Source: Phycisphaerales bacterium (GTDB lineage Bacteria > Planctomycetota > Phycisphaerae > Phycisphaerales > UBA1924). From it: a stretch of DNA of 64,000 nucleotides. Where the stretch lies: assembly GCA_905339235.1 (NCBI GenBank), contig CAJPFG010000001.1, positions 206,645-270,644 of the forward strand. Reading direction: 5' to 3'. The translations under genes and the position numbers were made by a program. Position 1 is the stretch's first letter. Every line of letters starts with the position of its first letter. Positions 6,281-28,371 of this stretch are shown one piece after another. The notes under the pieces are model-generated. The model was not told where the DNA came from, did not search any database, and saw only the letters and a program-made list of their open reading frames with translations.

Positions 6281-6471
6281 TCAGCGGACATCGTACGGGA
6301 GAACGCGCGAAAGTGGAGCGCGGGGCGGCCGGAATCGCGTGTTCTCGGGCGTCCGGGCCGGTTCGGAGGCGAATCCGGGGATCTGCGACGCGGACGTGGG
6401 AAGGTGCGAAGAATGGGGGGCTTGGCAGCCGGGTTGGGGAGACCGGGCGGCCGCGAAGGGAAGGGCGCGTC

Positions 6472-7203: not shown

Positions 7204-7219
7204 CTAGACTCTCCGCGTG
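7204..7219 (+). promoter_or_regulatory. Putative leaderless -10 element for gspF
   Basis: TAGACT at 7204-7209 lies exactly 7 nt before the GTG start of gspF at 7217, and there is no Shine-Dalgarno sequence. The same geometry (TAnnnT, 7-9 nt, start codon) recurs at several operon-leading genes in this window. Transcription would then start at or next to the start codon. Confidence 0.45.
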
Positions 7220-8509: not shown

Positions 8510-8556
8510 GAGGTGTGGCCCGTTCTTGCGAATCGGGCGCGAAATGGAGGCCGGGT

Positions 8557-10169: not shown

Positions 10170-10750
10170 AGCGCGGGTTCACGCTGATCGAGGTGATCGT
10201 CGCGATCGCGCTCATCTTGGCGCTCAGCATGAGCATCTTCTCCTTCGGATGGGCGATGCTGCACCGTCGGGAGTGGTTCTTGATGGAGTGCGCCGGCGAC
10301 GCCGCGGCGGAGGCCATGTGCGACGAGTTGGAAGATGACCTCGCGACAACGTCGGTGATCGACGGGTCGGGGAACGCGGGGATCGAGGGGACGGGGGAGT
10401 CGATCGTAGTTCGTGCCCGCGGCGTGCGGCGCGGCGGAGCGTCGCTCGCCGAGGATACCGGGTGCGAGTTTCGCTTCGACGTCGCGTCGGGAGCGCTCCA
10501 CGGCCGCCGGCTTGATGGCGCATCGGCGGATTCGGTGGTGGGGAAGTTGGGGCGGGTACGGCTGAGGTATTGGGACGGGCGCGAATGGCAAGATTCCTTC
10601 AACAGCGCCCGCGCGGGTCGCCTTCCGGCGATGGTTGAGGTGCGTTTCTGGCGCTCGGGAGCGGGAGGTGAAGACGAGGAGACCTGGGGCCTCGCGGACC
10701 GGACGCGAGTGATGGTCGTTCCCGATTCGGGAGAGAGGGAACAGGGGTGA
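10166..10750 (+). CDS. gspJ: Minor pseudopilin GspJ-like
   Basis: 194 residues. Seen: a short leader MKRG, then FTLIEVIVAIALILALSMS, a canonical prepilin cleavage and methylation site with +5 glutamate. The rest has a predicted beta-rich domain with FRFDVASGALHGRRL and VRLRYWDGREWQDSF; the WDGREW type of motif is common in GspJ proteins. It overlaps gspI by ATGA at its start and gspK by GTGA at its end, so the pseudopilin set is translationally coupled. GspJ forms a tip complex with GspI and GspK. Confidence 0.85.
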   Translation: MKRGFTLIEVIVAIALILALSMSIFSFGWAMLHRREWFLMECAGDAAAEAMCDELEDDLATTSVIDGSGNAGIEGTGESIVVRARGVRRGGASLAEDTGCEFRFDVASGALHGRRLDGASADSVVGKLGRVRLRYWDGREWQDSFNSARAGRLPAMVEVRFWRSGAGGEDEETWGLADRTRVMVVPDSGEREQG

Positions 10751-12285: not shown

Positions 12286-13851
12286 ATGGTCGGGTCTGGA
12301 AGGGACTACACGTTGGTGGAGTTGGATGGGAGACGCCTCACGGCGATCGCCGCGGCGGTCGGGCTGGAGCGGGTCGAGGTATTGCGGTGGCACACCGCGG
12401 ACCGGCCGGAGCGAATCAAGGGGGACGACGCGGCCGCGCTCGGCGGCTGGATCGCCGAGGAGTTGCGGCAGGCGGAGATCGCGAGGGGTCGGGTGGTGCT
12501 GGTGATTCCCCGTGGGGAAGTGGTGTTGAAGCCGCTTTCGCTGCCGCGGCCGGCGGTGGGCGCCGTGGGAGATGCGGAACTTGGCGGGATGGTCCGGCTT
12601 CAGATCGCGCGGCAACTCACCATGACCACGGAGCAGACCGCCATCGATTACGTGGTGCTGGGCGAAGCGGCAGGTGAGGGCGCGGGGACGGTCAACGTGC
12701 TCGCGGGAGCGCTGCCGGCGGATCGCGCGGCATGGTGGATGTCGCTTTCGGACGAGGCGGGTCTGGCGGTGAAGCGGATCGCGTTGCGATGCCTGGGTAT
12801 CGGCGCGCTGCTTGGTGAACTGTCGGTGCGGAGGGCGGGGGCGGTGATGGGCGTCGCGGTGGGGGCGCATGCCACCGACTTTGTGATCGTCGAAGAGGGA
12901 CGCGTGGTGTTCGCTCGCGCGGCCGAGCAGCCCCGGCCGGCGGATTCGGACGCGTTCGAGACCTTCGCCGAGCGGATCGGGGTCGAAGCGAAGCGCACGT
13001 GGATGAGTCATCGTGGCGGCAAAACCGCGGGTGCGATCGAGGGCGTGGTGGTTGTTGGCGAGGGGTCGTTGTGCGAGCGGGTCGCGGCGAGGTGCGGCGC
13101 GGCCTTGGATACCAAGGGCGAGACCATGCGGGCTCCGGCGCTCGTCCGGATGCCCGACCACATGCCCGAGATGCTGCGGGCCGACGCGGCGGCGCTGATG
13201 GGCTTACTCCTGGAAGTCGTGCAGGAACGGGTGAGCCTGGACTTTGCGAATCCGAGGAAAGCGCCTGACGCCGCGGCCCGGAAGCGCCAGTTAACGCTGG
13301 CCGGGGTGCTGGGCGCCATCATCCTCGGCGGCGGGGGCTATGTCGCGGCGAGCCAGAGCCTTCAGGGCTTGCGCGGGGACCTGAAGGGGCTGGAGGCCCG
13401 CGAAAAGACGCTTCAAGGCGACGTTGATGCGTTCTTGAGAGAGCACGCCCGGGTGAGGCATGTGGAGCAATGGAGGGGCGGCGGCGTGGATTGGCTCTCC
13501 CACGTGGCGTACCTGAATCAGGCGATGCCCGATCCGAGGCTGGCCACGCTGGACGAGTTCACCGCGCGGATGTCCGGGGAGGTCTCGTTCTCGCTCAAGC
13601 CAAAGAGTTCGTACCCCGCCGGGACCTGGGCCGTTCGACGGAGCGCTTCGATCGATCTGACGGGCCGGATGGAAGCCAGGCAGGTCGCTTCAGAGTTGCG
13701 TGACATCCTCATCGCCTCGGGCGCGTACGAGGTTCAAAGTCGCGGGGCGGATACTCCGGAGCGATTCAGCCTGCTCCTCGCGAGCGACCGTCTTAAGCCG
13801 ATTCCCGAGCCCGCGGCGGCCAAGCCATCGGGGAAAGGAGCGGCGAAATGA
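12286..13851 (+). CDS. gspL: GspL/PilM-PilN-type assembly protein
   Basis: 521 residues. Seen: an actin-like PilM/GspL cytosolic domain (residues about 1-325; it opens with YTLVELDGRRLTAI and contains MGVAVGAHATDFVIVEEGRVVFAR as the nucleotide-binding-like sheet), a basic stretch and one transmembrane helix (LAGVLGAIILGGGGYVAAS, about 343-362), then a coiled coil and a periplasmic ferredoxin-like domain (about 430-505) like PilN. In type IV pilus systems PilM and PilN are separate; in T2SS they are fused as GspL, as here. It recruits GspE to the membrane. It starts 3 nt after gspK and overlaps the next gene by ATGA. Confidence 0.85.
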   Translation: MVGSGRDYTLVELDGRRLTAIAAAVGLERVEVLRWHTADRPERIKGDDAAALGGWIAEELRQAEIARGRVVLVIPRGEVVLKPLSLPRPAVGAVGDAELGGMVRLQIARQLTMTTEQTAIDYVVLGEAAGEGAGTVNVLAGALPADRAAWWMSLSDEAGLAVKRIALRCLGIGALLGELSVRRAGAVMGVAVGAHATDFVIVEEGRVVFARAAEQPRPADSDAFETFAERIGVEAKRTWMSHRGGKTAGAIEGVVVVGEGSLCERVAARCGAALDTKGETMRAPALVRMPDHMPEMLRADAAALMGLLLEVVQERVSLDFANPRKAPDAAARKRQLTLAGVLGAIILGGGGYVAASQSLQGLRGDLKGLEAREKTLQGDVDAFLREHARVRHVEQWRGGGVDWLSHVAYLNQAMPDPRLATLDEFTARMSGEVSFSLKPKSSYPAGTWAVRRSASIDLTGRMEARQVASELRDILIASGAYEVQSRGADTPERFSLLLASDRLKPIPEPAAAKPSGKGAAK

Positions 13852-14852
13852 AGACCTCTCCGTACCTGATGCCGGTTGCGGCGGGCCTTGGCGCGATCGG
13901 GCTGGGCTGGGTCGGCGTGAACTCGGTGTACCTGGCGCCCAAAGACGAACTGATGTCGCGGATTGAGGCGAAGCGGTCGAGCATCGCTGCGATGGAAGGG
14001 ACGCTGAAGAATCGGCCCGACGTGCGATCCGAGGCCAAGGCCATTGGTGCGTCGCTGCTCGGCGAGGACCTGGACGAACTGAGCGCCCGCTTCCGCGACG
14101 GACTGGCGCGGGTGGCCGAGCAGAAGGGCCTGATCAAAGTGACCGTGGAAGCGGGGCGTCCGCAGGACGAACTCAATCCGCTGATCAACACCAAGGGAAT
14201 CGCGGTCACACTGAAGAAGGACCTGCGAAAGTACCCGGACTTCGGCGTAGTTCGAGGCACGGTGAAGGGGCAGGGTTCGTTGGAAGAAGCCTTGGGGGTG
14301 GTGGCCGCGTTGGAGGCTCAGACCTGGGTGCACCGTGTGGAGGGATTCTCCATCAAGCCGGCGGACAAGGATCGAACCCGGTTCGAGGTACGGGTGGAGG
14401 CGGCGACGCTCTATGCCCCAGACCTGGCGAAGGCAGCCGGGGCGGCCGGTCCCGAGCCGACTCTGGCCCTCGCGTCGGAGAAGGCGGGGGAGTTGGTTCG
14501 GCAGGTCGCGGCCAAGAACGTATTCCGCAAGCCTTCAGACGCCGGGGCGCCTTCCGTGCCGGTCGTGACACTCAAGCCCTCGCCCTCTCCGGACAGCGAG
14601 CCGCCGCGGGCGATTCCGTTCGCCACCTACGAGGACTGGAAACTCACCGGCGTTGCCCTGGGACACGCCGGGGCCGAGGCATTTTTTCTGAACGTGCGCA
14701 CCGGCGAAAAGGTGACCGTTCAGAAGGGTGGGGCGGTGCTGGACGCGGTGTTCCTCGATGGAACCGGTGAGACGGCGGTGGTGGAGATCGCTGGGAAGCG
14801 GTTCGAAGTGACAAACGGCCAGACTCTGGCCGCGCGTAAGCCCATGGGATGA
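13848..14852 (+). CDS. gspM: GspM/PilO-type protein fused to a PilP/GspC-like domain
   Basis: 334 residues. Seen: a short cytosolic tip, one transmembrane helix (LMPVAAGLGAIGLGWVGVNS), a coiled-coil segment and a ferredoxin-like PilO/GspM domain (about 90-185). A linker follows, and then a region that resembles the homology-region domain of PilP/GspC: it starts AAKNVFRKP (about 220-230), with a Pro-rich spacer and then WKLTGVALGHAGAEAFFLNV and the closing GKRFEVTNGQTL. In other systems that domain binds the N0 domain of the secretin. No separate gspC is present, so this fusion would link the inner-membrane platform directly to the giant secretin (inference). Confidence 0.75.
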   Translation: MKTSPYLMPVAAGLGAIGLGWVGVNSVYLAPKDELMSRIEAKRSSIAAMEGTLKNRPDVRSEAKAIGASLLGEDLDELSARFRDGLARVAEQKGLIKVTVEAGRPQDELNPLINTKGIAVTLKKDLRKYPDFGVVRGTVKGQGSLEEALGVVAALEAQTWVHRVEGFSIKPADKDRTRFEVRVEAATLYAPDLAKAAGAAGPEPTLALASEKAGELVRQVAAKNVFRKPSDAGAPSVPVVTLKPSPSPDSEPPRAIPFATYEDWKLTGVALGHAGAEAFFLNVRTGEKVTVQKGGAVLDAVFLDGTGETAVVEIAGKRFEVTNGQTLAARKPMG

Positions 14853-14932: not shown

Positions 14933-17900
14933 ATGCCCCGTCGCAAGACCCGGAGTCTATTGGTATCGGCGTCGCTGGTGGCCGTGGTCGGCCTGCCGGT
15001 GTCGGTATGGTCGCAGGACGCCCAGCCGCCGGTGAAAGCGCCCGAGTCCGCGGCGGGCGGTGCTGCGGCGATGCAGCCGGATCCGACCAAGGCGGACTCG
15101 AAGTTGAGGTTCAACTTCAAGGACACGCCGATCGACCAGGTGCTGGACTTCTTCGCTCGCGAAAGCGGAGTGCCGGTCATCTACGAGGCGGCCATCCCGG
15201 CGGGGACGGTTTCGTTCGTCAGCGCGTCGGAATACACGTACGCCGAAGCGCTGTCCATTCTGAACCTGAACCTGGCCCGCTTCGGTGTGCACCTGAGGCG
15301 CGAAGCGCAGTACATGTACCTGGGGACTCTCCAGGACTCGATGAAGCGAGCGGCATCAACACCGGCGGATATGGCCCGGCTCAATGCGCTCACGCCCGAC
15401 CAGATCGTCACGGTCAGCATTCCCCTGGACAACGCCCGTGCGGACCAGGTCGCCGAGCAGGTGAAGACCATGGTGGGGGCCTACGGCGGGGTGCTCGCCA
15501 TCCCGACGCAGAACATGATCGTGGTGGTCGAGAGCGTCGGGCAGATCCGCCGCATCCGAGATGTGGTCGAGGCCATCGATTCAAGGAAGCCCGCCGACGC
15601 CGCGTTCAAGATGTTCGTGCTTCAGTACGCCAACTGCGACGCGGTGCTGAACGCACTCCGCGGCCTGGTGAGCGAGCGGCGGAGCACCGTCATCGTGGAC
15701 AAGGACGGCGGACAGCGAGTCGTGCAGGACCAGAACCTGCAGGGGCTGAATCTGGCCTCGGACCCGCGCACGAACTCGATTGTTGCGGTGGGGCCGGAAT
15801 CCCGGATCAAACTCGTGGCCGAGGTCGTGACGATGCTCGACGTGCCGGAGAACGCCGTCGGCACGTTCGGGGCCGCGACGGACACGAACGCGGGGGTCGA
15901 ACTTCGCACGTTCACCCTGACGAACATCACGGCCGAGGAGGCCGCGAAGCAGGTCAACGCGCTCTTCCAGGCGCTGGATCCCAAGCGCCGTCCGGCGGTG
16001 CTGCCTCTGCCGTCGGCCGGCAAGATCACGATCATCGGCGGCAAAGGGCTGGTGTCGCAGGCGGCGATGCTGCTTGGCGAACTGGACCCGGGCGCTGGTA
16101 TCGGCGGGCCGGCATCGGCAACTCTCGAGCGCCGCGCGGCCACGATCAAACTGAAGAATGCGACCCCGGCCATGATTGAGGGGCTGGTCACTCGACTCGG
16201 CACGCCGCGCCAGCAGCAGGTCTTGAAGATCGCGCCGACCCCGGACGGCAAGTCGATCATCGTGATGGGTCCGGACGCGGATGTGACGGCGGTGGAATCG
16301 CTGATCACAGCCCTGGATGTGCCCGCGGAGATGGACCGCGACGTTCGGATGGTGAAGATCACGCGGGGCGAGGCCGCGGAGGTCCTGCGACAGACCCAGA
16401 GCCTCTACGAGAAGACCGGTAAGGCGGCGCGCGAGCCGATCACGGCGACCCTCGACGAGGCGACGCGAACGGTGACGCTGGTCGGCAGCCGCGCGGCCTT
16501 GGGCGACTTCGACACGCTCCTCAACTCCACGCAAGCCGTCTCGGCGACCGAGCAGGAATCGCGGAAGTTCCAGTTGCAGCGCGGGACCCCCAGCAGCATT
16601 GCGGGGAAACTCTCGCGGCTGTCGCGATCGCTGCTCGCGCCGAGCGACGGCGCCGCGTATGTCGAGCCGATCTTCGACCCGGTTGACGAACTCGGGCTGC
16701 TGGTCGTGCGCGCCCAGCCCGCCCAGTTCCAGGTGCTCTCGGTGCTGGTCCAGCAACTCGACGCGGCCGAGGGCGGTGGCAGGGACGTTCGAGTCGTCAA
16801 ACTCGGGACCGCCGATCCGCACGGCGTGCTCAAGCGGGCACAGAAGATGTACGAGGAACGCACGGCCGGAATGACTCCCGAGCAGGCCGGCCCGATCGTC
16901 GCCGATTTCGACGAAACGACGGGGGCTGTCGTACTTTCGGGGCGCGCCGTGGGCATGCGGCTCTTTACCGAAACCCTGAACCAGGCGCAGCAGTTGGTGC
17001 CCCCCGCCCGTACCACGCGCGTGGTCGACGTCCACAACACCAGCGCGGCCAAGGTCATCGAGCCGCTGCGGAGCCTCATGGCCTCCGCGGACTCCATCGA
17101 CCCCGCACGCAAGGTCCCCGACCCGACGATGCAGGTGGTAGAGCGGACCAACTCGCTCCTGATCACGGCGGAAGACGCCCAGCACCGGCTCATTCAGGAC
17201 TTTGTCACACGCCTGGACAAGGTGGACGACCAGACGCTCCCGCCGATGAAGTTGATTCAGTTACGCCAGGCCGACGCCGCGGGCGTTGCCGGAATGCTGA
17301 CCGAGCAGTATGGCAAGCGCCCGCAGTCGGAGCGGCTGGCCAAGCCCGTGGAGGTCCGGTCCGACGCGGCGACGAACACGCTCATCGTCTCGGCCCACCC
17401 CGACCTCTTCACGGAGATCAAATCGTTCGTGGAAGAGATGAACAAGGAAAAGCGCGAGGCGCCCGATCGCGTGACGGAGTTGTTCCCGCTCAAGGTGGCC
17501 AAGGCGGTTGACGTCGCGACCGCGATGGATCGGCTGTACCCCGAGCCCCCGATGCCGGTGGATCGATTGAACCGGCCGCAGCCGTGGCTGCGCAAGGCGA
17601 AGGACGTCTTCGTTTCGGCGGAGGCCACAAGCAACTCGCTGATCATCGACGCATCGCCCGAGCGGATGGAGTCGCTCAAGCAACTGGCCGAGCGACTGGA
17701 CCGGGTCGAAGTGCCGCCGCAGGCTCAACTTCGCACCTTCCGCGTGCCCACGCAGAGCCTGGACGCGGTGACACGCACGCTCCAGAGCATGTCCACACGC
17801 GGCCTTCTCACCGAGCCGGCCCAGCCGGGCAAGCAGCCCGTTCAGGTGCTCATCGAGCCGGAGCCAAAGAGCGGCACGCTGATCGTCGCCGGAGATTCCA

Positions 17901-20900
17901 AGACCTTTGAGACGGTCGAGCAGTTAATGAAGGACCTTTCGCTGGTGCCGGTCGAGAAAACCCTTCGGATCTTTCCGATCTCCAACGAGAAGGCGTCCGT
18001 GGTGCGCGATCGGGCGATGGCGATCTACGACGCCCAGGTCGCGCAGGTCCCCACGGCCAACCCGATCGACGTGACAGCGGATGAGAAGGCGAACACCCTC
18101 GTGGTCGTCGCCGACGGCGAGGGGATGCAGCGGTTCAGCAAGGTCATCGACGAACTCAACCGCCAGTCCGGCCCGGCACGCGAAGTGCGACTGATCGACC
18201 TGAAAATGGCCAAAGCCGACGAGGTCGTGGGTTTCCTCCGGGATCTGGTCAAGTCGAGCGAATCGTTCACGATCAAGGGCGGCGCCGAGCCGGTCTTCGA
18301 GGTGATCGAGTCCACCAACCAGATCATGGCCGCCGCACAGCCGATGCAGTTCCTCGTGATCGAGGCGCTGGCTCGCAACCTGGATTCCAAGCAGGGAGGC
18401 GACCGCCCGCCGATGCGGATTCTCAAACTCCGCACCACCGACGCCGCCAACCTCGCCGGAGTTCTCCAGCGTTCGTACGACGCCCGAACGCCCGAGGAAC
18501 GCGGCAAGAAGCCCGTATCCATCGAGTCCGACGCCGCGACCAACACGCTGATCGTGTCGGCCCATGCGGAAGTGCTGCCGGAGATCGAGGGGATCATCTC
18601 GCAACTCAACGAGACCGAGGCCGCGGATGCGAACGGCCGCGAGATCCGGATCTTCCCGTTGAAGGTGGCCCGCGCGGAGGAACTCGCGCAAACCATCGAC
18701 CAGATGTATCCGGAGCCGCCGATTCCGCTGGACCCGCGGACGCGCCAGCCCCGCCCGGACCTCAAACTGCCGCGCGAAGTGATCGTGCGGGCAGACCGGG
18801 CGACGAACTCGCTGATCGTGGATGCCCCTTCGAAGCGGCTGGCCGGGTTCGAGCAGTTGGTCAAGAGCCTGGACCAGACCAAACTCGCGGATAACGTGAC
18901 GCTTCGCACCTACCGCGTGGAGCGGGCGGACCTGAACTCGCTCGCGACAACTCTGAAGAACCTGTCCGCGACCGGATCGCTGGGGAACAAGAGCAGCACC
19001 GCGCCCGTGACGATCTCGACCGACACGCCTACCCGCACCCTCATTGTGAGCGGCCCCACCGAGGTGTTCGCGGCCGTCGAGGACGTGCTCAAGAAGTTGG
19101 ACACCGGCTCCAGCATGCCTCCGTCGGACATGAAGTTGTACGCGCTGGTCAGCGCGCGGGCCGATCGCATCTCGCCGCTGGTCGAGCGCGTCCTCACGAC
19201 CCGCGCAAAGGAGATGCGGGCGGCGGAGGGCAAGGGTGTTCCCGACAATGAAAAACTCGTGGAAGTTACCCCGGACCCCGCGTCGAACACGCTGATTGTC
19301 TCGGCGCCGTCGAACGTGCTGCTGATCGCCGACGGGATCATCAAGGCGCTGGATCAGCAGTCGGTGGCGACGGCGGTGGAGGTCCGCGTGTTCCGTCTCA
19401 GCAAGGGCGAGGCCGCCAGCGTGGCGACGGCGATGGGCACGGCCCTGAAGGCGCAGGACAAACCCGGCGCCACCGCGGCGACCGTGACCCCCGAGCCCGC
19501 GAGCAACACGATTGTCGTCGTCGGCACCGCCGAGCAGATCGAGCGGGCGGGTAAACTCGTCGAGACCATGGACGCGGCGGTGGACCGCGACGGGATGGGA
19601 CTCAAGACGATCATGCTCAAGCACGCGCGCGCCGAAACGCTGGCACCGGTGCTCGAAGGGGTGCTCGCGAAGGAATCGTCGATCGATCGCCTTCCCCAGT
19701 GGATGCAGGCCCAGGTTCTCTCCCGCGGCGGCACGGAGCCGCCCAAGGTCCGGGTGATCGCGGAGCAGCGCCTCAACGCGCTGGTGGTCAGCGGTCCGCG
19801 CGCCATCATCGATATGGCCGAGCAGGCAATCGCCGAACTCGACGCCGATCCCACCGGCGCCGGACCCCAGCGGGCCGTGCGTGTCATCACACTCCAGAAC
19901 GCCGACGCCGCGCAACTCGCCGCGAGCCTGGAGGCGGTCTTCAAGGATGCCGCGGGGCAGGAGCCCCCGCCCGTGATTCGGGTTGATTCCCAGAGCAACT
20001 CGCTGATCGTCCGCGGCTCGACGGAGCAGATGACGACCGTCGATGACCTCACGAAGAAACTCGATGCGGCCGCGGTCAACGTCAGCCGGCAGATGCGGAT
20101 GGTGCCGATCGATCCTTCCCGGGCCGACGCGGAACTCCTGGCACGCACGCTCAAGCGGCTGATCGAGCAGCAGGGCGGCACCAAAGTCGAGGTCATCTCG
20201 ACGGAAGAACTGCTCAAGCGGTCCCAGAAGGGCGATCCGGGCGAAACCGAAGCGCCCAAGGAAAAGCGGACCGGCTCACTGAACGATCGGGGGTCACGAA
20301 GTCGAGGTCTGAGCACGCTCGGAGCGGCAATCGTCGCCGCCGTCACGGCAATCCCGCAGGCGGAGGCCGCGCCGGCTCCGCAGGCGCAGCCGGCGCCGGA
20401 AGCGGAAGACACCGGCGTCACAATCGCTGTAGACAAAGCGACCAACACGATCATGTTCGTGGGCTCGCCGCGCATGGCCGACCGTCTGGCGCAACTCGCG
20501 AAGCAACTCGAAAGCCAAATGCCCGCCGAGCCCACGGGCGTGCGTGTCGTGACGATGCCTTCGAACGTCGATGCGGACCAGGTCGCGCAGATGGTGCGGC
20601 AGACCGTCTCCCAGATCGGCCGCCTCTCCGCCGGAAATGCGGGCGGATTCACGGGCCCGGTGACCCTGAGCGTCGATCCCGCGGGCGGGGCGCTGATCGT
20701 CCTGAGCAACGACACCGACTTTGAGACCGTGGGCAAACTGATCGCAACCATGACGCAGACGGTGCCGGGCGGCAAGATGACCGTCAAGGTCTACCCGCTG
20801 ACGAGCATCTCGGCCCAGCGCGCGATCCAGTCGGTGCAGGACCTCTTCACGACCGCGCCGCGCGGCGCGCAGGCCCGCCGCATCCGTGAGATCGAACTCT

Positions 20901-23900
20901 CGATGCCCGGCGCCCAGGGCGAGATCACCGGCCGCATCGACCCCTCGACTATCCGCATGACCAGTGATCCGGGCGGGGCGGGGGTCATCATCGCCGCCCC
21001 TGACGAGGCAATCCCGATCATCGACCGGCTTCTGGAGACGATTGACCAGAGCCCTGTAAAGGACCGGCTCGCGATTCGTCGGTACGAGGTCAAGAACGCC
21101 AGGGCCGAAGATCTCGGCCGCACGCTTCAGTCGCTCTTTGACGCACAGCGGCAGGGAACGAGCGCCAACGACCTGCCGCAGGCGAGATTCGTTCCCGATG
21201 CCCGTACGAACACGTTGCTCGTGACGGCCAGCGATCCGCAGCACAAGGACGTGGTCCGCCTGCTCGCAGAGGCCGACGCGCCGATGGATCGGCCGGACCG
21301 CGAGATGGCGATTATCACGCTGCGGCAAGCCGCGCCGAGCACGGTGCGGCGGATCGTGGATGAAGTGCTCATCGCGCGTGACCCGGCCCGGAAAGACCGA
21401 ATCCAGATCTCGGCCGAGGACGGGTCGAGCGTGCTGGTGGTCCGCGCCGCCAAGGAGGACCTGGAGCAGGTCCGCGCCATTATCGCGCAGGTGGATCAGG
21501 CCGAGACCGGCGGGCAGCCCGTGCGTTCGATCAAACTCGAACGGGCCGACGCCGGGCAAGTGGCCCAGGCTCTTCAGACGTTCTTCCGCGACCGCGCAAC
21601 GGGCCGGCCCGGGCAGCGGGGCGTGAATCGCGTTGCGGTGGTGGGCGACAAGCGGACCGGCACGCTGGTGGTCTCCGCCTCGGACGAGGACTTCGCGCAG
21701 GTAACCGAACTCATCAAGACGTTCGACACCCCGGCGCCCTCGCAGGATCTTCAGTTCAAAGTCGTGCCGCTCAAGAACGCACGTGTCAACGACGTTTCGA
21801 ACACCATCAAGTCGATCGTCGATGAAGTTCGCTGGGAGACGGCGTTCGGCGCCGGGGGCCAGGGCGACAAGGTTGACCTGCACATCGAGGCCAACGAGCG
21901 GACCAACAGCCTCGTGCTGATCGGCCGCGGTGAAGCCATGCAGACCGCCGAGCGCGTGATCCAGGCCCTCGATATGCCCGAGGAGGCGAGAGCGACGCTG
22001 ACCATCAAGAGCGTTAAGGTTCGCGGGGCGGACGTGCAGGCGCTCCGTAACGTGCTTCAGCGCGCCTTCACGACGCCGAACTGGCGCTCGTGGCGCGGTC
22101 CGGACCCCGAGGCCATCACCGTCGAGATCGACCGGGCGCAGCGGGCGTTGATCCTCGTCGGCAAGGCCGAGCGGGTGCAGCAGGCGGCCGACTACATCAC
22201 CCAACTCGATCAGGGCGCCGAGGGCGGTGCGCTGAAAGTCGAAGCCATCACGCTCGAACATGCCAAGGCGGATCGCGCGGCCAACAGCCTGCGGCAGTTC
22301 TTCTCCGACCGCGCCAAGGCCCAGGGCGTTGATCAGCCCGGAGTCAGCATCATCGGCTCCTCCGACGGGAACGTGCTGATCGTTTCGGGCGATGATGACA
22401 ATCTCGCGACGCTCAAGGATCTCATCGCGCAGATCGACCAGCCCGACGGCGGGAAGGACCGCCGCATCGATGTGGTGAGCCTGCAGAACGCGCAGGCGAA
22501 CGACGTCGCGACCTCGCTGCGCGCCATGTTCGCGCGCGGCACGCGCGAGGACGAACGCGTCATCATCACGCCGCAACCTTCGACCAACTCCGTGATCGTT
22601 TCGGCGCCGGCGGGAACGTACCCCGAGGTGCTGACGCTGCTCAAGCAACTCGACGCAGCGCCCAAGGCCGACGAGGCGAACATCGAGACGGTGGCGCTTA
22701 CGAGCGCGCGGGCGCAGGACGTGGCGCAGGCGCTGAAGACCGCCCTTCCTCCAAACGTCAAGGTCACCGTGACGCCGGTGGTCCGCAGCAACTCGCTGCT
22801 CCTGACCGGCTCCAAGGAAGCCATCGCGATCGTGATAGACCAGATCAAGAAGATCGACACCGAACCGGTGCGCAGCGGGCTGGTCTTCCGCAGGTTCAAA
22901 CTCACCAGCGCCGAGTCCTCGGACGTCTCCTACACCGTCGAGCAACTCCTCCGCGCCCGGCCCAAGAGCCCCACCGAGCCCGCCGCGAGCATCGACTACA
23001 GCCGCAACGACAACACGCTCACCGTCTACGCACCCGCCGACCAGATCGAGGAGATCGAGAAGATCATCCGCGAACTCGATCAGGCGCCCAGCGAGGAACG
23101 CACCACCGAGTTCGTGAAACTCGACTACGCCAACGCCACGCAGGCGGCCAATGCCCTGCGCGTGTTCTACGGCCGCAGCGCGCCCGAGGCCGCGAGCGCC
23201 GGCGCTCGAAACGTGACGATCCTCCCGGACGCGCTGTCGAACTCGCTGGTCATTCGCGCCGACAAGACCCAGTGGGAGGGCATCCGCGCGCTCCTGACCA
23301 AACTCGATACCAAGGAATACGACACCACCCGCCAACTCGCGGTGATCGGCCTCGAGCACGCCGACGCGGCCAGCGTCGCCAAGGCGCTCAACGAGGGCTT
23401 GCGCGCCCCGCTCGAAGAGCAACTCCGCCAGGCCCAGATCCGCCAGGTCCGCCAGCGCCAGGGCCAGCCGGTCCGCCCGAGCGACGAGCGGGCCGAGGCA
23501 ACGGTGCTCGTCGATGCCGAGGGTGTTCCGACGGTCTCGGCCGAGCCCCAGACCAACTCGCTGATCGTCTTCGCCGGAGGCAAGGAACTCGAACGCATCC
23601 GCGAGATTGTGCGCCAACTCGACGTCTCGGGCTTCGCCGATATGCCCAAGCCGCGCATCATCGCGTTGAAGAACGGCAAGCCCACGGCCGTCGCGAACAC
23701 CATCCGCGAGATGTATCTGAACAAACTCGAGCGGGCCAACGGGCCGCGGGCGGTGCTGGTGATCGGTGAGGATACCACGGGGGCGCTCATCGTCCGCGCC
23801 GACGATGAGAAGTTCGCGCAGATCAAGGCTCTCGCGGAGACGCTGGAGCAACAGGGCGAGATCGGGCGGGTTTCCCCACACGTGGTCCGGCTGAAGAACA

Positions 23901-26900
23901 TCGCCGCCGGGCGACTTCGCCAGACCATCCTGACAACCTTTACCGAAACCGCGAAGTCGCAGGGCGAGACTCTGGCGGTCGAGGTGGACCGCGCGAGCAA
24001 CTCGCTCGTGGTCGCGTGCAGCAGCCGCCTGCTCGAAGAAATCAAGAAGGTCATCGCCGAACTTGACCAGCCCGCCTTTGGGACTTCGCCGGACGGCACC
24101 GGCGCCGGGCTGATCGGGCAGAATGTGACCATCGTCGATGTGGTCAACAACGATCCCGCCGATATCAAGCGCATTCTCGACGACATGGGGCTCACCAAGG
24201 TGCAGGCCCTGGATCGCCCGGGAGTCGTCTCCGAGCAGGTCAGCATCAGCGTGATGTCCACCCGCCGCGCCCTCGCCGTGGTCGGCGCGCCCGGGGATGG
24301 CAGGGCCGTCGAGGGGCTCGTGAAAGCGCTCGACGCGGCGCCGATGGACGCCCAGCAGCAGGTGTTCATCGTCCCGCTCAAACTTGCGACCGCGGCGACG
24401 CTCGCCACGACTCTGAACACCATGCTCAAGGTAGACGATCCGGCCAACGGGCTGACGGGCCCGGCCCGCGCGCTAACCGAGCAGATCCGCCGCCTGCAAC
24501 TGGTGAAAAACGGCGCCGATCAGCCCACCGGCGTCGTGGACCTGTCCAAACCCATCAAGATTCTGGCCGATGCGGAATCCAACTCGCTCATCCTGACCTC
24601 CACGCAGGCGAACATCGACGCGCTCCGCGAAGTCGTGAAGTCGCTGGACATCCTGCCCACCGGCGACGCGGTCGTGATGCGGATATTCCCGCTGGAAAAC
24701 GCCAGCGCCACGCGCGTGAAGGCCGTGGTGGACCAGTTGTTCCAGCAGGGCGAGGAACTGCGGAGACTCCCCGGAACGAAGCGTCAAGGGCTTCCGCCCA
24801 CCGCCACCGGGCAGGCCCTCGCCGGCGAAATCGCCATCGCCGTGGACGATCGCACGAACACGCTGATCGCCGCCGGGCGAGAAGAGGCCGTGGCTCTGGT
24901 CGAAGTGCTCATCAAAGACCTCGACGGCGAGCGCGTGAGCAAGTGGGTGGAGCCGGTGATCGTGCCGCTGAAGTTCGCCGATGCGCGGACGCTCGCCGCG
25001 AAACTCAACGAAGTCCTGGTGAGAGGCCTGAGCACTACGCAGGAGGCCGCGGGGCTTCAGAAGCAGTTCGGCCGGCTGCGACTCATGCAGCAGGGGGCGG
25101 CCCCGGCGGCGCCGGTCAACGGCCCGGCTCCGGTCCCGATTTCCAACATGCTCCAGGCCGACCTGTTCGCGCCCGTGACCGGACTTGTCGTCACCGCCGA
25201 AGAGCACATGAATGCCCTGATCGTCGTGGGCACTCCCGCCAACAACGCCGTGGTCAGGGCACTGGTGGCCCAACTCGACGTCGAAGCCGCTTCCGCGGCG
25301 AACACCGTCCGGATCTTCCCGCTGCGGTTCGCCGCGGCGGAGCGGGTGTCCGGCGTTCTCCGCGACGTGTTCCGGCAGCGTGCGGAGGCCGATCAGGACC
25401 GTCCGGAAGACCGCCTGATCATCACGACCGACGTTCGAACGAACGCGCTGGTTGTCTCCACGAGCCCGCGAAGTTTCGCGGTGGTGGAGGGATTGCTCAA
25501 GACCCTCGACGGCGAAAAGAGCAACTTCTCCGTCGGGATGCACGTGCTCCCGATCGTGAACTCCGACGTGCGTCAACTGGCCCCGCGGATCGAGCGGCTG
25601 ATGCGGGAGCGAATCCAGGCCGCGGCCCAGGTCGGGAGCATCCGCAACCCCCTCGACGCCTTCAGCATCGAGCCCGAGCCGACCAGCAACCTGCTGATCG
25701 TGGCGTGCAGCGACGAGAACCTGACGGTCGTGAAGGAACTGATCGCGGCCCTGACGGCCGACTCGGAGAAACTCGCCGCGGGCGAGCGGGTGGACATCGT
25801 GCAGTTGTCCCGCGCCCGAGCGGGAGAAGTCGCCCAGTCGCTGGATCAGTTATACATCGAGAAGGAGAACCAGCGCCGGGGCCCCGGGGCCGTGCGTGCG
25901 ATGGCCAACGAGCGGCTGAACGCGCTGGTGATCAGCGGCAACGAGCAGGACTTGATCGAGTTGCGGGCACTGGCGAAGAAGGTTGACAGCGCCGAGTTCA
26001 CGCAGAAGCAGCAGATCAAGTGGATCGAGTTGAAGAGCGCGAACGCCAACGAGGTCGTGCGGCTCGTGCAGAGCGTGCTCGCGGGCCGGCCCATGGGCGG
26101 GGGCAGCGGGCTGGGCGCCCGTCAGGCGACGCGGGTGCAGTTCCTGCGAGAGAAGATGCGCGACGAGATGGTCGGGCAGGGCAAACCGCCGACCGAGGCC
26201 GATATCGACGGCGCGATCAAGGACCAGGTGACCCTGAACGCCGACGTGCGCACGAACTCGGTGTGGATCACGGCGCCCGAGGCGATGGCCACGCTCATCA
26301 CCGAGATGATCACGGACATCGAGGAATCCAGCGCGGGGGCGCGCAAGATCGAGAAGTTCCGGCTCGTCAACGCCGACGCCGTCAAGATGCGGGAACTGCT
26401 CCGCGATATCTTCCAACTCCAGCAGCAGGGCGAATCGCTCGTGCTCGTCCCGGTCCGCTCCGACCTCAACCAGCGGAACGAGCCTGCTCAGTCCCCCGCG
26501 GCCGACGGCGCGTCGGTCGCGATGGAGGACGTTTCGGTCACGCCGGTCCCCGACGAACGCCAGCAACTCTCGATCGCCGTCGATCAACGGACCAACTCGC
26601 TGATCGTCTCCGGCACCGACGAGTACCTCACGCTGGTCCGAAAGGTCGTGACCGAACTCGACGCGATCAGCGCGAACGAGCGGGAACGCCGCGTCTACAA
26701 ACTTCGAAACGCGAAGGCCAAAGAGATCGAAACGACGCTCAAGTCGTACTTCCAGGGCGAGGCCGACAAGGAGCGCCTCACGCTGGGCACCGATCGCGCG
26801 GGCTCGCTGATGAAGCAACTCGAAGAGGAAGTGACCGTCGTCGGCGACGAAGCCAGCAACAAACTCGTAATCTCGACCTCACCCAAGTACATGGAGTCGG

Positions 26901-27865
26901 TGCTCAAGATCGTGGACGAACTCGACCAGACCCCGCCGCAGGTGATGATCCAGGTCCTTCTCGCGGAAGTGACTGTGGACAGCGCCGAGCAGTGGGGGAT
27001 GGACGCCAAGGTCGGGCCCTTCGGCGGCGACGGCTACGTCATCGGTTCGACGGCCCAGGGCGTGGGAGTCGCGACGGCGCTGGGCGTGCCCAATCTTTCC
27101 GTGACAAGCGCCGACTTCGGCGTGCTCATCCGCGCGCTCGAACTCCAGGGAAAACTCGAAATCCTCAGCAACCCGCAGGTGCTCGCCAACAACAACAAGC
27201 AGGCGCAGATCAAGGTGGTGGACGACATCGGCCTGGCCGGCAACACCCAGCGCGGCTTCGGCTCGGACACGATCGTCTCCACCGTCCAGCGGCAGGACGT
27301 GGGGATCATCCTGAAAGTCACGCCCGCCATCTCGGCCGACGGCTTCGTACGCATGGAAATCTCGCCCGAGATCTCGTCCCTCACCAACCGCACGACGCAG
27401 ATCAACCGCGATCAGACCGCGCCCATCATCACCAAGCGCACGGTGGACACCGTCGTGACCGTGAAGGACGGTCAGAGCGTCGTCATCGGCGGGCTGATCC
27501 AGACCACCGAAGAGCGTCGCCGTAGCAAGGTCCCGATACTGGGCGAAATCCCCATCTTGGGCCTGCCCTTCCAGACCAAGCAGAACACCATGAACAAGAC
27601 CGAACTGCTGGTCATCCTGACACCCCGTGTCATCCCCAACGACGGCGCGGACACCGACCAACTCGTGCAGGATGTCACCGAGCAGCGGGTGGACCAACTC
27701 GACGATCCCACCCGTGTGCAGGACTTCCTCGAGCGCATTCGCCTGGAGGTCAAACAGCAGAACGCCAAGCACGGCATCGTTCCGCCGGCTCCCGCGCAGG
27801 ATGTGCCTCCCGCCGAGCCGGCCGCGCCTCCCCCACCCAACAACGCACCACAGGAACCGCGATGA
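14933..27865 (+). CDS. gspD: Giant secretin (GspD-type) with about 46 N-domain repeats
   Basis: 4310 residues against about 650-750 for ordinary GspD. Seen: a signal peptide (1-27), N0 domain (57-130), about 46 tandem secretin-N-type repeats (157-4000, mean about 84 residues), the C-terminal secretin beta-barrel domain (4001-4236, with EILSNPQVLANNNKQAQI, VGIILKVTPAIS and VVIGGLI ... KVPILGEIPILG) and a Pro-rich tail. Each repeat has a helix-rich first half and a strand motif like TNSLIVSA followed by a helix ending in LD. Secretins form outer-membrane channels; the N domains stack in the periplasm and N0 contacts the inner-membrane platform. The strong AGGGAGG site 5 nt before ATG fixes the start. 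The frame is uninterrupted. It is co-directional with gspF-M, and its stop overlaps the next gene by ATGA. The function as a secretin is secure; what needs such length is unknown. Confidence 0.97.
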   Translation: MPRRKTRSLLVSASLVAVVGLPVSVWSQDAQPPVKAPESAAGGAAAMQPDPTKADSKLRFNFKDTPIDQVLDFFARESGVPVIYEAAIPAGTVSFVSASEYTYAEALSILNLNLARFGVHLRREAQYMYLGTLQDSMKRAASTPADMARLNALTPDQIVTVSIPLDNARADQVAEQVKTMVGAYGGVLAIPTQNMIVVVESVGQIRRIRDVVEAIDSRKPADAAFKMFVLQYANCDAVLNALRGLVSERRSTVIVDKDGGQRVVQDQNLQGLNLASDPRTNSIVAVGPESRIKLVAEVVTMLDVPENAVGTFGAATDTNAGVELRTFTLTNITAEEAAKQVNALFQALDPKRRPAVLPLPSAGKITIIGGKGLVSQAAMLLGELDPGAGIGGPASATLERRAATIKLKNATPAMIEGLVTRLGTPRQQQVLKIAPTPDGKSIIVMGPDADVTAVESLITALDVPAEMDRDVRMVKITRGEAAEVLRQTQSLYEKTGKAAREPITATLDEATRTVTLVGSRAALGDFDTLLNSTQAVSATEQESRKFQLQRGTPSSIAGKLSRLSRSLLAPSDGAAYVEPIFDPVDELGLLVVRAQPAQFQVLSVLVQQLDAAEGGGRDVRVVKLGTADPHGVLKRAQKMYEERTAGMTPEQAGPIVADFDETTGAVVLSGRAVGMRLFTETLNQAQQLVPPARTTRVVDVHNTSAAKVIEPLRSLMASADSIDPARKVPDPTMQVVERTNSLLITAEDAQHRLIQDFVTRLDKVDDQTLPPMKLIQLRQADAAGVAGMLTEQYGKRPQSERLAKPVEVRSDAATNTLIVSAHPDLFTEIKSFVEEMNKEKREAPDRVTELFPLKVAKAVDVATAMDRLYPEPPMPVDRLNRPQPWLRKAKDVFVSAEATSNSLIIDASPERMESLKQLAERLDRVEVPPQAQLRTFRVPTQSLDAVTRTLQSMSTRGLLTEPAQPGKQPVQVLIEPEPKSGTLIVAGDSKTFETVEQLMKDLSLVPVEKTLRIFPISNEKASVVRDRAMAIYDAQVAQVPTANPIDVTADEKANTLVVVADGEGMQRFSKVIDELNRQSGPAREVRLIDLKMAKADEVVGFLRDLVKSSESFTIKGGAEPVFEVIESTNQIMAAAQPMQFLVIEALARNLDSKQGGDRPPMRILKLRTTDAANLAGVLQRSYDARTPEERGKKPVSIESDAATNTLIVSAHAEVLPEIEGIISQLNETEAADANGREIRIFPLKVARAEELAQTIDQMYPEPPIPLDPRTRQPRPDLKLPREVIVRADRATNSLIVDAPSKRLAGFEQLVKSLDQTKLADNVTLRTYRVERADLNSLATTLKNLSATGSLGNKSSTAPVTISTDTPTRTLIVSGPTEVFAAVEDVLKKLDTGSSMPPSDMKLYALVSARADRISPLVERVLTTRAKEMRAAEGKGVPDNEKLVEVTPDPASNTLIVSAPSNVLLIADGIIKALDQQSVATAVEVRVFRLSKGEAASVATAMGTALKAQDKPGATAATVTPEPASNTIVVVGTAEQIERAGKLVETMDAAVDRDGMGLKTIMLKHARAETLAPVLEGVLAKESSIDRLPQWMQAQVLSRGGTEPPKVRVIAEQRLNALVVSGPRAIIDMAEQAIAELDADPTGAGPQRAVRVITLQNADAAQLAASLEAVFKDAAGQEPPPVIRVDSQSNSLIVRGSTEQMTTVDDLTKKLDAAAVNVSRQMRMVPIDPSRADAELLARTLKRLIEQQGGTKVEVISTEELLKRSQKGDPGETEAPKEKRTGSLNDRGSRSRGLSTLGAAIVAAVTAIPQAEAAPAPQAQPAPEAEDTGVTIAVDKATNTIMFVGSPRMADRLAQLAKQLESQMPAEPTGVRVVTMPSNVDADQVAQMVRQTVSQIGRLSAGNAGGFTGPVTLSVDPAGGALIVLSNDTDFETVGKLIATMTQTVPGGKMTVKVYPLTSISAQRAIQSVQDLFTTAPRGAQARRIREIELSMPGAQGEITGRIDPSTIRMTSDPGGAGVIIAAPDEAIPIIDRLLETIDQSPVKDRLAIRRYEVKNARAEDLGRTLQSLFDAQRQGTSANDLPQARFVPDARTNTLLVTASDPQHKDVVRLLAEADAPMDRPDREMAIITLRQAAPSTVRRIVDEVLIARDPARKDRIQISAEDGSSVLVVRAAKEDLEQVRAIIAQVDQAETGGQPVRSIKLERADAGQVAQALQTFFRDRATGRPGQRGVNRVAVVGDKRTGTLVVSASDEDFAQVTELIKTFDTPAPSQDLQFKVVPLKNARVNDVSNTIKSIVDEVRWETAFGAGGQGDKVDLHIEANERTNSLVLIGRGEAMQTAERVIQALDMPEEARATLTIKSVKVRGADVQALRNVLQRAFTTPNWRSWRGPDPEAITVEIDRAQRALILVGKAERVQQAADYITQLDQGAEGGALKVEAITLEHAKADRAANSLRQFFSDRAKAQGVDQPGVSIIGSSDGNVLIVSGDDDNLATLKDLIAQIDQPDGGKDRRIDVVSLQNAQANDVATSLRAMFARGTREDERVIITPQPSTNSVIVSAPAGTYPEVLTLLKQLDAAPKADEANIETVALTSARAQDVAQALKTALPPNVKVTVTPVVRSNSLLLTGSKEAIAIVIDQIKKIDTEPVRSGLVFRRFKLTSAESSDVSYTVEQLLRARPKSPTEPAASIDYSRNDNTLTVYAPADQIEEIEKIIRELDQAPSEERTTEFVKLDYANATQAANALRVFYGRSAPEAASAGARNVTILPDALSNSLVIRADKTQWEGIRALLTKLDTKEYDTTRQLAVIGLEHADAASVAKALNEGLRAPLEEQLRQAQIRQVRQRQGQPVRPSDERAEATVLVDAEGVPTVSAEPQTNSLIVFAGGKELERIREIVRQLDVSGFADMPKPRIIALKNGKPTAVANTIREMYLNKLERANGPRAVLVIGEDTTGALIVRADDEKFAQIKALAETLEQQGEIGRVSPHVVRLKNIAAGRLRQTILTTFTETAKSQGETLAVEVDRASNSLVVACSSRLLEEIKKVIAELDQPAFGTSPDGTGAGLIGQNVTIVDVVNNDPADIKRILDDMGLTKVQALDRPGVVSEQVSISVMSTRRALAVVGAPGDGRAVEGLVKALDAAPMDAQQQVFIVPLKLATAATLATTLNTMLKVDDPANGLTGPARALTEQIRRLQLVKNGADQPTGVVDLSKPIKILADAESNSLILTSTQANIDALREVVKSLDILPTGDAVVMRIFPLENASATRVKAVVDQLFQQGEELRRLPGTKRQGLPPTATGQALAGEIAIAVDDRTNTLIAAGREEAVALVEVLIKDLDGERVSKWVEPVIVPLKFADARTLAAKLNEVLVRGLSTTQEAAGLQKQFGRLRLMQQGAAPAAPVNGPAPVPISNMLQADLFAPVTGLVVTAEEHMNALIVVGTPANNAVVRALVAQLDVEAASAANTVRIFPLRFAAAERVSGVLRDVFRQRAEADQDRPEDRLIITTDVRTNALVVSTSPRSFAVVEGLLKTLDGEKSNFSVGMHVLPIVNSDVRQLAPRIERLMRERIQAAAQVGSIRNPLDAFSIEPEPTSNLLIVACSDENLTVVKELIAALTADSEKLAAGERVDIVQLSRARAGEVAQSLDQLYIEKENQRRGPGAVRAMANERLNALVISGNEQDLIELRALAKKVDSAEFTQKQQIKWIELKSANANEVVRLVQSVLAGRPMGGGSGLGARQATRVQFLREKMRDEMVGQGKPPTEADIDGAIKDQVTLNADVRTNSVWITAPEAMATLITEMITDIEESSAGARKIEKFRLVNADAVKMRELLRDIFQLQQQGESLVLVPVRSDLNQRNEPAQSPAADGASVAMEDVSVTPVPDERQQLSIAVDQRTNSLIVSGTDEYLTLVRKVVTELDAISANERERRVYKLRNAKAKEIETTLKSYFQGEADKERLTLGTDRAGSLMKQLEEEVTVVGDEASNKLVISTSPKYMESVLKIVDELDQTPPQVMIQVLLAEVTVDSAEQWGMDAKVGPFGGDGYVIGSTAQGVGVATALGVPNLSVTSADFGVLIRALELQGKLEILSNPQVLANNNKQAQIKVVDDIGLAGNTQRGFGSDTIVSTVQRQDVGIILKVTPAISADGFVRMEISPEISSLTNRTTQINRDQTAPIITKRTVDTVVTVKDGQSVVIGGLIQTTEERRRSKVPILGEIPILGLPFQTKQNTMNKTELLVILTPRVIPNDGADTDQLVQDVTEQRVDQLDDPTRVQDFLERIRLEVKQQNAKHGIVPPAPAQDVPPAEPAAPPPPNNAPQEPR
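15101..15325 (+). other. Secretin N0 (STN-like) domain of the giant secretin
   Basis: Residues 57-130: FKDTPIDQVLDFFARESGVP followed by VSFVSASEYTYAEALSILN and HLRREAQYMYL matches the beta-alpha-beta pattern of the secretin/TonB short N-terminal domain. It is single-copy, unlike the domains that follow. Confidence 0.85.
16781..17950 (+). repeat. Five-domain block A of the secretin array
   Basis: Domains 7-11 by my count (390 residues). Each aligns in order with the five domains of the next block. Examples are QYGKRPQSERLAKPVEVRSD against SYDARTPEERGKKPVSIESD, and DRLYPEPPMPVDRLNRPQP against DQMYPEPPIPLDPRTRQPRP. The equal length of the two blocks supports a unit duplication. Confidence 0.7.
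17951..19120 (+). repeat. Five-domain block B of the secretin array
   Basis: Domains 12-16, the partner of block A, again 1170 bp. The best-conserved pairs are domains 9/14 (both with SDAATNTLIVSAH) and 10/15 (both with MDRLYPEPP- or DQMYPEPP-like inserts), while the first domain of each block has diverged more. Confidence 0.7.
20285..20368 (+). other. Signal-peptide-like segment inside the giant secretin
   Basis: Residues 1785-1812 read as a basic stretch RGSRSRG, a hydrophobic core LSTLGAAIVAAVTAI and an AEA-like cleavage site, followed by an Ala/Pro/Gln-rich linker. It sits inside repeat 21, whose normal loop it expands. It looks like a former N-terminus absorbed by gene fusion, or a flexible hinge. 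Confidence 0.5.
26933..27640 (+). other. C-terminal secretin domain
   Basis: Residues 4001-4236: opens with VMIQVLLAEVTVDSAEQWG, contains the gate region and the conserved VPILGEIPILGLPFQ and LLVILTPRVI motifs of the outer-membrane beta-barrel. Length and motifs are ordinary for GspD/PilQ, so only the periplasmic part is enlarged. Confidence 0.95.
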
Positions 27866-28371
27866 CCGAAGTTCGAACGATTCTGATCTGGAGCATCGCG
27901 GCCTCGCTCCTGGGAGGATGCGTGACCGACGGGCCCAAGACCGGCCCGAAACGCCCGCAGCCGTCCAACGCGGTCCCCACGCAGTTCGTCCCCTCCATCG
28001 GGAGTTTCGAGGACACCAACGCCAACGGGTACCCCGACAGCGCCACGATCTCGATCTACGTGTTCTCGGATTCGTACCCAGAGGCGTCGATCCTTGTCCC
28101 GGGCACGCTCTCGTTTCGGCTGACCACTCGCGATGGCAAGGTGCTGCGGGAGTGGGCGTTCGACGAGGCGCGCACCGCCGGGTTGGTGCGGCGAGGACCC
28201 GTCGGCCCGGGTTATGTCCTGCGCCTGAGCCTCCTGGACCAGGGCGGAACGGATGTGCTCACGGAAAACAGGGGCGATCTGGTCGTCATGTTCCGATCCC
28301 GCGACGGGGCGACACTGACATCGCTCCCGGAAACCGTTCGCATCGGAAAACCTGGCCGCCCGGGGGGCTGA
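27862..28371 (+). CDS. Small lipoprotein overlapping the secretin gene
   Basis: 169 residues. Seen: an N-terminal hydrophobic segment with the lipobox LLGGC (cysteine near residue 20), a Lys/Pro linker, then a beta-rich domain without a family match: DTNANGYPDSATISIYVFSD, which looks like a calcium-loop-like motif, and SFRLTTRDGKVLREWAF. The ATG overlaps the giant secretin stop as ATGA, so the two are probably translated together. Position suggests a role in secretin insertion or stability, as pilotin lipoproteins have, but no sequence similarity to pilotins is visible. Function unproven. Confidence 0.75.
   Translation: MTEVRTILIWSIAASLLGGCVTDGPKTGPKRPQPSNAVPTQFVPSIGSFEDTNANGYPDSATISIYVFSDSYPEASILVPGTLSFRLTTRDGKVLREWAFDEARTAGLVRRGPVGPGYVLRLSLLDQGGTDVLTENRGDLVVMFRSRDGATLTSLPETVRIGKPGRPGG

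Follow-up and report, generated by a model that had tools for sequence, protein, structure and literature searches.

A giant type II-like secretin with 46 N-domains in a Phycisphaerales bacterium, probably a long periplasm-spanning channel

The window analysed here, a stretch of 64,000 nucleotides of a Phycisphaerales genome, carries a giant GspD-type secretin gene (14933..27865, forward strand). Its product is probably a type II secretion channel whose 46 N-domains stack as rings into a periplasm-spanning tube, likely more than 100 nm long. This proposal starts from what was observed, namely the domain content of the protein, its gene cluster, its conservation, the order of its domains within the family and purifying selection. 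Each N-domain would form a homo-oligomeric ring like N1-N3 of GspD, and a stack of up to 46 N-rings plus N0 would reach from a platform in the inner membrane to the pore in the outer membrane, with N0 presumably facing the platform. Through this tube the pseudopilus and cargo would cross a broad span of periplasm to arrive at the pore. Its length would be set by the number of N-domains; at 2.5-4 nm per ring (our own range), 46 rings would measure about 115-185 nm if every domain stacks.

The frame starts with ATG, encodes 4310 amino acids and contains no internal stop codon, in agreement with the first-pass annotation, which had described it as unbroken. All of its parts lie on the forward strand. 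A predicted N-terminal signal peptide (residues ~1-27, 14933..15013; hydrophobic stretch 8-27) is followed by N0 (residues ~57-130, 15101..15322), the inner-membrane-side module N1-N20 (residues 161-1715, 15413..20077), the junction domain N21 with a long insert in its alpha1-beta2 loop (20054..20524), N22-N46, which form the outer-membrane-side module of 26 domains when N21 is included (20501..26938), and the Secretin pore domain (residues 4068-4234, 27134..27634), whose fold matches GspD chains. In a Pfam search of the 4310-residue protein, Secretin_N (PF03958) matched 42 stretches that each pass E 1 alone (1163.9 bits in total), far more than the ten that the first-pass annotation had set as the minimum for its count of about 46 N-domains. 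A model built from the repeats of the protein itself resolved exactly 46 (residues 161-4002, each i-E ≤ 2e-11), neighbours lying no more than 14 residues apart, and a model retrained on the relatives again returned 46. Secretin (PF00263) gave a single match (residues 4068-4234, 157.7 bits, cut-off 27.5). The Pfam match to N0 was sub-threshold (residues 60-114, 13.8 bits against a cut-off of 27), and an N0 profile made from relatives placed exactly one N0 in 52 of the 53 complete fused giants (the miss is L075). The single N0 and single ordinary secretin domain were thus read correctly at first pass, as was an N-domain number far beyond that of GspD, which would make the periplasmic part very long if the domains stack.

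The NCBIfam model for GspD (TIGR02517) scored 1149.2 bits (cut-off 351.35), a score swollen by 27 stretches. The PilQ and SctC models also passed their own cut-offs with lower scores than GspD; PilQ (TIGR02515) reached 374 bits, over its cut-off of 284 and far below the GspD score. The AMIN domain is a PilQ feature, and no Pfam match to it was found in the 4310-residue protein at E ≤ 1. GspD of type II secretion has three N-domains after N0, N1-N3, which form rings, whereas the giant has one N0 but 46 N-domains. The giant secretin presumably works like GspD, in a variant architecture.

The genes around it form a type II secretion cluster, in which GspE, GspF and GspG all exceed Pfam cut-offs. 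The GspE-type ATPase with an MshEN domain (T2SSE) is encoded on the reverse strand (4598..6280), and the remaining genes lie on the forward strand: the GspF platform protein (7217..8410; T2SSF), the major pseudopilin GspG (8515..9066; T2SSG), GspH-like (9070..9750), GspI-like (9744..10169) and GspJ-like (10160..10750) pseudopilins, a GspK-like minor pseudopilin with a helix-hairpin-helix motif (10747..12282), a PilM/GspL-like protein (12286..13851) and a predicted inner-membrane protein of 334 amino acids (13848..14852). GspG also passes its NCBIfam cut-off; for the ATPase and the platform protein, GspE and GspF are the best NCBIfam models and score below cut-off. The GspH-like and GspJ-like proteins carry a prepilin motif over cut-off with their GspH and GspJ matches below, the GspI-like protein is below cut-off, the GspK-like protein passes for HHH_3 and is below for T2SSK and GspK, and the PilM/GspL-like matches fall below curated cut-offs. 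Downstream of the secretin, where all other cluster genes are upstream, lies a predicted lipoprotein of 169 amino acids (27862..28371, forward strand) that overlaps the secretin stop. The first-pass annotation did not mention this cluster, nor the six ordinary-size secretins of the genome and the near-constant outer module described below.

In type II systems the HR domain of GspC binds N0, and a pilotin is a lipoprotein that serves GspD. The 334-residue protein is GspM/GspC-like by position and by eye, its C-terminal part resembling the HR domain by eye; profile and family searches, including one for the HR domain, gave no confident match. The 169-residue protein has a lipobox cysteine (Cys 20) that is invariant in 22 aligned rows, and profile searches gave it no confident family match; it is a candidate pilotin. 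Both identities are leads, not findings. Relatives of several cluster genes adjoin giants in other families, with matches that weaken with distance and on stretches of unequal reach. Ordinary-size homologues (L050 and L068-L070; 742-809 amino acids, 3-4 N-domains) also lie downstream of GspE, GspF and GspG genes. Their like gene order shows that such a machine needs no giant.

Giant secretins are widespread in the class. Secretin frames of at least 2000 amino acids occurred in at least 31 of 61 genomes in a search of relatives and in at least 39 of 150 genomes in a search of the class (hand counts of the matches listed). In nine genomes of two other families, Pfam Secretin_N gave 32-45 matches each, most of those listed lying inside a single frame of 4144-4890 amino acids. 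Of the 1612 candidates scored in a protein search over lengths of ~2370-7540 amino acids, 502 reached E ≤ 0.001; such names as the 120 matches listed carry point mainly to Phycisphaerae, Phycisphaerales or Planctomycetota, and one label reads Leptolyngbya. Database names of family proteins are 'secretin N-terminal domain-containing protein' and 'type II secretion system protein D'. In 294 genomes of the phylum (272 outside the class), the longest secretin frame outside the class among the matches listed had 1491 amino acids; the 310-residue query of the class and phylum searches favours the window's own lineage, and we do not claim absence outside the class. Some records speak against a restriction to this class: giants of 4209 and 4273 amino acids come from two entries labelled Verrucomicrobia, and five labelled Planctomycetia or Planctomycetaceae (L130, L132, L135, L148 and L158) have 31-41 N-domains on the stretch analysed, although such labels are doubtful.

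Across 89 secretin frames (L001-L090, some cut at contig or stretch ends), the number of N-domains ranged from 0 to 63, the largest protein being L076 (6169 amino acids, 63 N-domains). Eleven family groups of the class have single chains of 30-63 N-domains, which shows that the giant frame is no assembly error. The search for orthologues in Phycisphaerae proposed at first pass thus returned giants from many families and assemblies, and independent genomes rule out misassembly as their source. Two other loci, L043 (three overlapping frames) and L131, resemble frameshifts by eye. N-domain numbers are close within most genera (49-50 in g23, 37-38 in g34, 38 and 38 in g59, 31 and 31 in g88, and 14 and 14 in g76, counting the pore-bearing chain only) and less uniform in g142 (37 and 40) and in the window's genus (46, 46, 47, 40 and 40). 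In a tree of secretin domains without far paralogues, the branch that sets the giants apart has support 0; with far paralogues included, short homologues nested inside the giants (support 86-88).

Domains were counted before and after the region of the window's N21, which was taken as the anchor. The outer-membrane-side module has 26 domains in 22 of the 23 proteins of the window's family (22 in L021; L045, cut by a contig end, was left out of this count), in all three complete f4 proteins, which belong to one genus, and 28 in two f2 proteins. The third f2 protein, L037, fell below the score limit of the anchored count and has 22 in the analysis of hydrophobic stretches. The inner side has 13-24 domains in the window's family and 7-24 over 33 complete fused proteins, with a standard deviation of 5.4 compared to 1.4 on the outer side (at least one record among the 33, L021 and L101, was entered twice). 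The tube would be built of two modules in series, a near-constant one on the outer-membrane side (26 domains in the window's family) and a variable one on the inner-membrane side.

The domains of the outer module are ordered one to one within the family. Each of the window's N21-N46 was compared with all eight other family proteins selected, and the best partner stood at the same rank from the C-terminus for 25 or 26 of the 26 domains. In six proteins of other families, same-rank partners were fewer (7 of 26 in f4, 5 and 5 in f2, 3 in f8, 3 and 5 in f16), in part because differing domain numbers shift the ranks. As judged from these alignments, strict domain order is a family-level fact. Changes on the inner side come as blocks: about six domains around the window's N7-N12 have no partner of their own in L018, and L011, L017 and L028 have four extra domains between N17 and N18.

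Whole-gene dN/dS against three congeners (L015, L022 and L018) was 0.18, 0.27 and 0.27. By part, it was 0.21-0.35 in the inner module, 0.16-0.26 in the outer module and 0.09-0.25 in the secretin domain, ratios that place the giant gene under purifying selection throughout. One block of the window looks duplicated, N9-N11 matching N14-N16 at 48, 42 and 32%, and would fit a recent, neutral growth of repeats. The best partners of the other repeats reach only 24-40%, and recent expansion was rejected except for that block. Together with the low dN/dS, the ordered domains of the family and the many families and assemblies that hold giants, this makes it very improbable that the repeats grew recently and neutrally or that the frame is an assembly artefact.

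The junction domain N21 stands out by its insert. Across the proteins analysed, 1023 of 1024 inserts of at least 18 residues lie in the alpha1-beta2 loop, and in 39 of 40 fused proteins (those with a detected junction insert, identical junctions dropped) no other insert is as hydrophobic as the one at the junction. Median hydropathy was 1.72 in junction inserts compared to 0.23 in the others (p 4.6e-24, a guide only, as the rows are related), and a crude signal-peptide pattern was present in 16 of 40 junction inserts vs. 14 of 391 other inserts. In the window, a signal-peptide-like hydrophobic stretch (residues 1792-1808, 20306..20356, forward strand) is followed by Q-A-E-A and then by a proline-rich linker. 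Compared to the three congeners, the insert is 42-54% identical and the gene 66-78%; the sequence of the insert drifts fast, while its hydrophobicity is kept across the order. Neither this insert nor the natural gene splits described below figured in the first-pass annotation.

An internal translation start at the window junction was ruled out, since codons 1748-1832 contain no in-frame ATG, GTG or TTG. At the junctions of relatives, a Shine-Dalgarno match (5 of 6) was present in 1 of 59 vs. 4% of random places, and any in-frame start codon within the 20 codons before the stretch in 42 of 59 vs. a background of 74%. ATG was commoner there than the background (26 of 59 vs. 28%), and some relatives may use internal starts.

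Similar stretches occur elsewhere in other families. In all seven fused f8 proteins, a hydrophobic core that ends in A-x-A/G-Q lies at rank 14-15, counted from the pore, and basic residues precede it in six of the seven stretches printed (both by eye); L150, L154 and L164 likewise have a signal-like insert 14-15 domains from the pore. This rank is close to the split place of f19, f17 and f21, whose pore-bearing chains have 12-16 N-domains. A further hydrophobic stretch lies at rank 30-33 in six of the seven f8 proteins, and f22 has one at rank 11-12 in four of six. In f5, f6, f14, f15, f16 and f25, stretches were flagged in 8 of 15 loci at scattered ranks, none of them signal-peptide-like by eye.

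In 14 loci, the giant is encoded by two or three consecutive genes (six loci of f19, together with f17, f21, f2 and five further loci; L038 and L134 are the same record), the f21 split giving three chains. The splits fall at the N21-type boundary or at another place about 15 domains from the pore. Each pore-bearing chain contains 12-24 N-domains and, by eye, opens with a hydrophobic signal-like stretch of its own, which in all 14 loci is followed by a partial N-domain. This begins at model column 44-57 (the beta2-beta3-alpha2 part) in 13 of the 14 and at column 31 in L090, and scores low (6 to 26 bits). According to the model, the beta1-alpha1 part closes the upstream chain in 10 of the 14 loci, in one case at a negative score. 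Six loci have N0 in their first chain, that is, all whose chain start is covered (the other eight run off the stretch), and the N0 profile found it in none of the 14 pore-bearing chains. The splits show serial chains, not rings, and chains that must act in series fit a stack. In the split lineages, the tube would be put together from two or three chains placed end to end, and the two parts of a divided domain, one on each chain, would make up the junction ring. In the window, both modules sit on one chain, which would keep a former or still active signal peptide in the loop of the junction ring.

Whether former or active matters for the mature protein. The insert may be a relic of gene fusion, kept uncleaved for a structural purpose, for instance to give the junction ring a hydrophobic constriction or a contact with a membrane. 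The preserved hydrophobicity of a drifting sequence and the near-universal place of long inserts in the alpha1-beta2 loop favour such a relic, whereas the f8 ends resemble, by eye, cleavage sites rather than a gate; we regard it as a serious contender, somewhat short of an even chance. Alternatively, the 4310-residue chain would be a precursor that signal peptidase cuts at the junction insert into an N0 plus N1-N20 segment and an N21-N46 secretin segment, which would dock via the divided junction domain in the manner of the split-gene lineages. Such a precursor differs from the one-chain tube only in its mature form. The outstanding hydrophobicity and signal pattern of the junction inserts, the f8 stretches near the split place of f19, f17 and f21, and the improbability of an internal start (no start codon in the window, scarce Shine-Dalgarno matches) speak for cleavage. 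Against it, once a chain has begun to enter the periplasm, an internal segment would be wrongly oriented for signal peptidase unless re-inserted, 24 of the 40 junction inserts fail the crude pattern, the flagged stretches of the six scattered-rank families are not signal-like, and the excess of ATG before the stretch leaves room for internal starts in some relatives. On balance we consider the precursor possible, if doubtful.

A broader form of this idea is a secreted polyprotein that is also a molecular ruler. Signal peptidase would cut at internal signal peptides, the segments would re-dock via the two-chain domain, the N-domain number would set a reach of more than 100 nm, and fused and split genes would interchange because the segments stack either way. 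This would explain why signal-like inserts are kept. It needs an unusual topology, and we hold it to be a speculative and rather improbable reading. The stacked tube remains our preferred explanation.

Structural comparison bears on the single domain. A profile of nine mid-chain N-domains matched solved GspD over one stretch of ~220 residues (best 5zdh, E 2.8e-30), the length of three N-domains. An AlphaFold2 monomer model of residues 2035-2720 (37 rows, pLDDT 80) shows nine beta-alpha-beta-beta-alpha units in an unreliable mutual arrangement (pTM 0.42), and a second one of residues 3523-4262 (54 rows, pLDDT 78, pTM 0.43) matches GspD chains. Among the 50 Foldseek matches listed, runs of domains do not superpose (query-normalised TM 0.08-0.18) and the best TM by target length is 0.46, to N0-N2 of XcpQ. 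On these predicted models, Foldseek speaks to the fold of the single domain, not to the arrangement of domains. The structure prediction proposed at first pass, run on two stretches, accordingly upheld the domain fold and left the arrangement unsupported. Both the low pTM of the monomer models and the runs that do not superpose count against the stacked tube.

The genome has seven secretins over cut-off, the giant and six of 764-1138 amino acids, one of which (L091) adjoins its own GspF, GspG and GspK relatives. Since the genome also encodes these six secretins of ordinary size, a periplasm that is everywhere as wide as the tube is long is unlikely. These six and the low pTM would suit a periplasm of ordinary width in which the N-domains are not stacked and instead fold back, form flexible arms or make a sheath around the pseudopilus. 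Such arrangements are unlikely given the short or absent linkers between domains, the ordered and near-constant outer module of the family, the N0 kept at the far end and the within-domain junctions of the split systems.

A stacked tube of 115-185 nm in small cocci would need a local widening of the periplasm or an infold of the inner membrane. Two described Phycisphaeraceae species are cocci of ~0.6 and 0.4-1.1 µm according to the available text of PMC7783415 and PMC8882080, and no such widening or infold is reported for Phycisphaerae in the available text of the literature examined. Variable enlargement of the periplasm is described for tomograms of Planctopirus limnophila (PMC5394234, available text). 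The first-pass annotation had also proposed a part in crater-like pits. The published descriptions do not support this role: in their available text the described Phycisphaeraceae are reported without crateriform structures, and three strains have fimbriae or fibres (PMC7783415, PMC8882080). The same texts count giant genes only above 15 kb, a limit that may be why the 13-kb secretin gene drew no attention.

We found no description of such a giant secretin in the literature searched, most subscription journals being outside the search, and the main text of PMC11266412, on Phycisphaerae genomes, lacks the words secretin, secretion and pili in the part available. If the domains stack, this would be the longest envelope-spanning protein channel known to us. 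It opens a testable question, whether the ring number sets the width of the gap that a secretion machine bridges. The modules and splits would mean that the periplasm is locally wide or infolded in a bacterial class that is large and for the most part uncultured.

Among known systems, the Amuc_1098 family of Akkermansia is a secretin family that matches the pore domain of the giant, but at 68.4 bits against a cut-off of 750 the giant is not a member. By E-value, the mid-chain model finds its best Foldseek match in DR_0774 of Deinococcus radiodurans (PDB 8co1), which has only 740 residues. PilQ of Thermus thermophilus shares extra N-rings with a wide periplasm: the available text of PMC5745081 and PMC4463427 gives rings N0-N5, a channel of ~35 nm and a periplasm of ~70 nm. 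By analogy, it is a precedent for extra rings in a wide periplasm. It differs in its 757 residues, its six N-terminal rings and its type IV pilus machine, and six is the largest ring number met in the available literature, compared to 30-63 N-domains in chains of the giant's family. The closest likeness in parts is to GspD of type II secretion, with N0, N-domains, the secretin domain and neighbouring gspE, gspF, gspG and prepilin-like genes. The giant departs from it in having 46 N-domains where GspD has three, in its two-module build, in its signal-like insert and in the split forms of its relatives.

In relatives of this Phycisphaerales bacterium, the giant secretin is encoded at several loci by two or three adjacent genes, with the break located within an N-domain (L038, L051, L053, L054, L064, L065 and L067). 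The same split state was observed at L085, L090, L136, L156, L159 and L165. In the fused giants, we analysed the junction, the region corresponding to the window's N21, whose insert harbours a signal-peptide-like hydrophobic stretch. An in-frame ATG preceded this stretch in 26 of the 59 fused junctions of relatives, and was commoner than at random places (28%). Shine-Dalgarno sequences were not enriched alongside the ATG excess at these 59 junctions.

ARAGORN called a tRNA-Phe within the secretin gene of the window, on the opposite strand (positions 25605-25695, minus strand); as it falls in coding sequence, the hit probably arose by chance. Elsewhere in the window, a glutathione peroxidase gene (6313-7167) lies between the divergent GspE gene and the GspF gene of the type II secretion cluster, and two cpn60 chaperonin genes (37573-39288 and 40762-42378) are located near one another on the same strand.

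Among the relatives, four loci (L046, L047, L048 and L049) harbour a second long secretin type (1310-1569 aa) with a long N-terminal part, in which the N-domain model, trained on the repeats of the giant and retrained on relatives, found no N-domain copies. The secretin of L171, labelled Gemmataceae, has 1968 aa and 11 N-domains, and those of L163 and L166, both labelled Verrucomicrobia, have 4209 and 4273 aa respectively, with at least 41 N-domains. The largest member seen was the L076 secretin (6169 aa, 63 N-domains).
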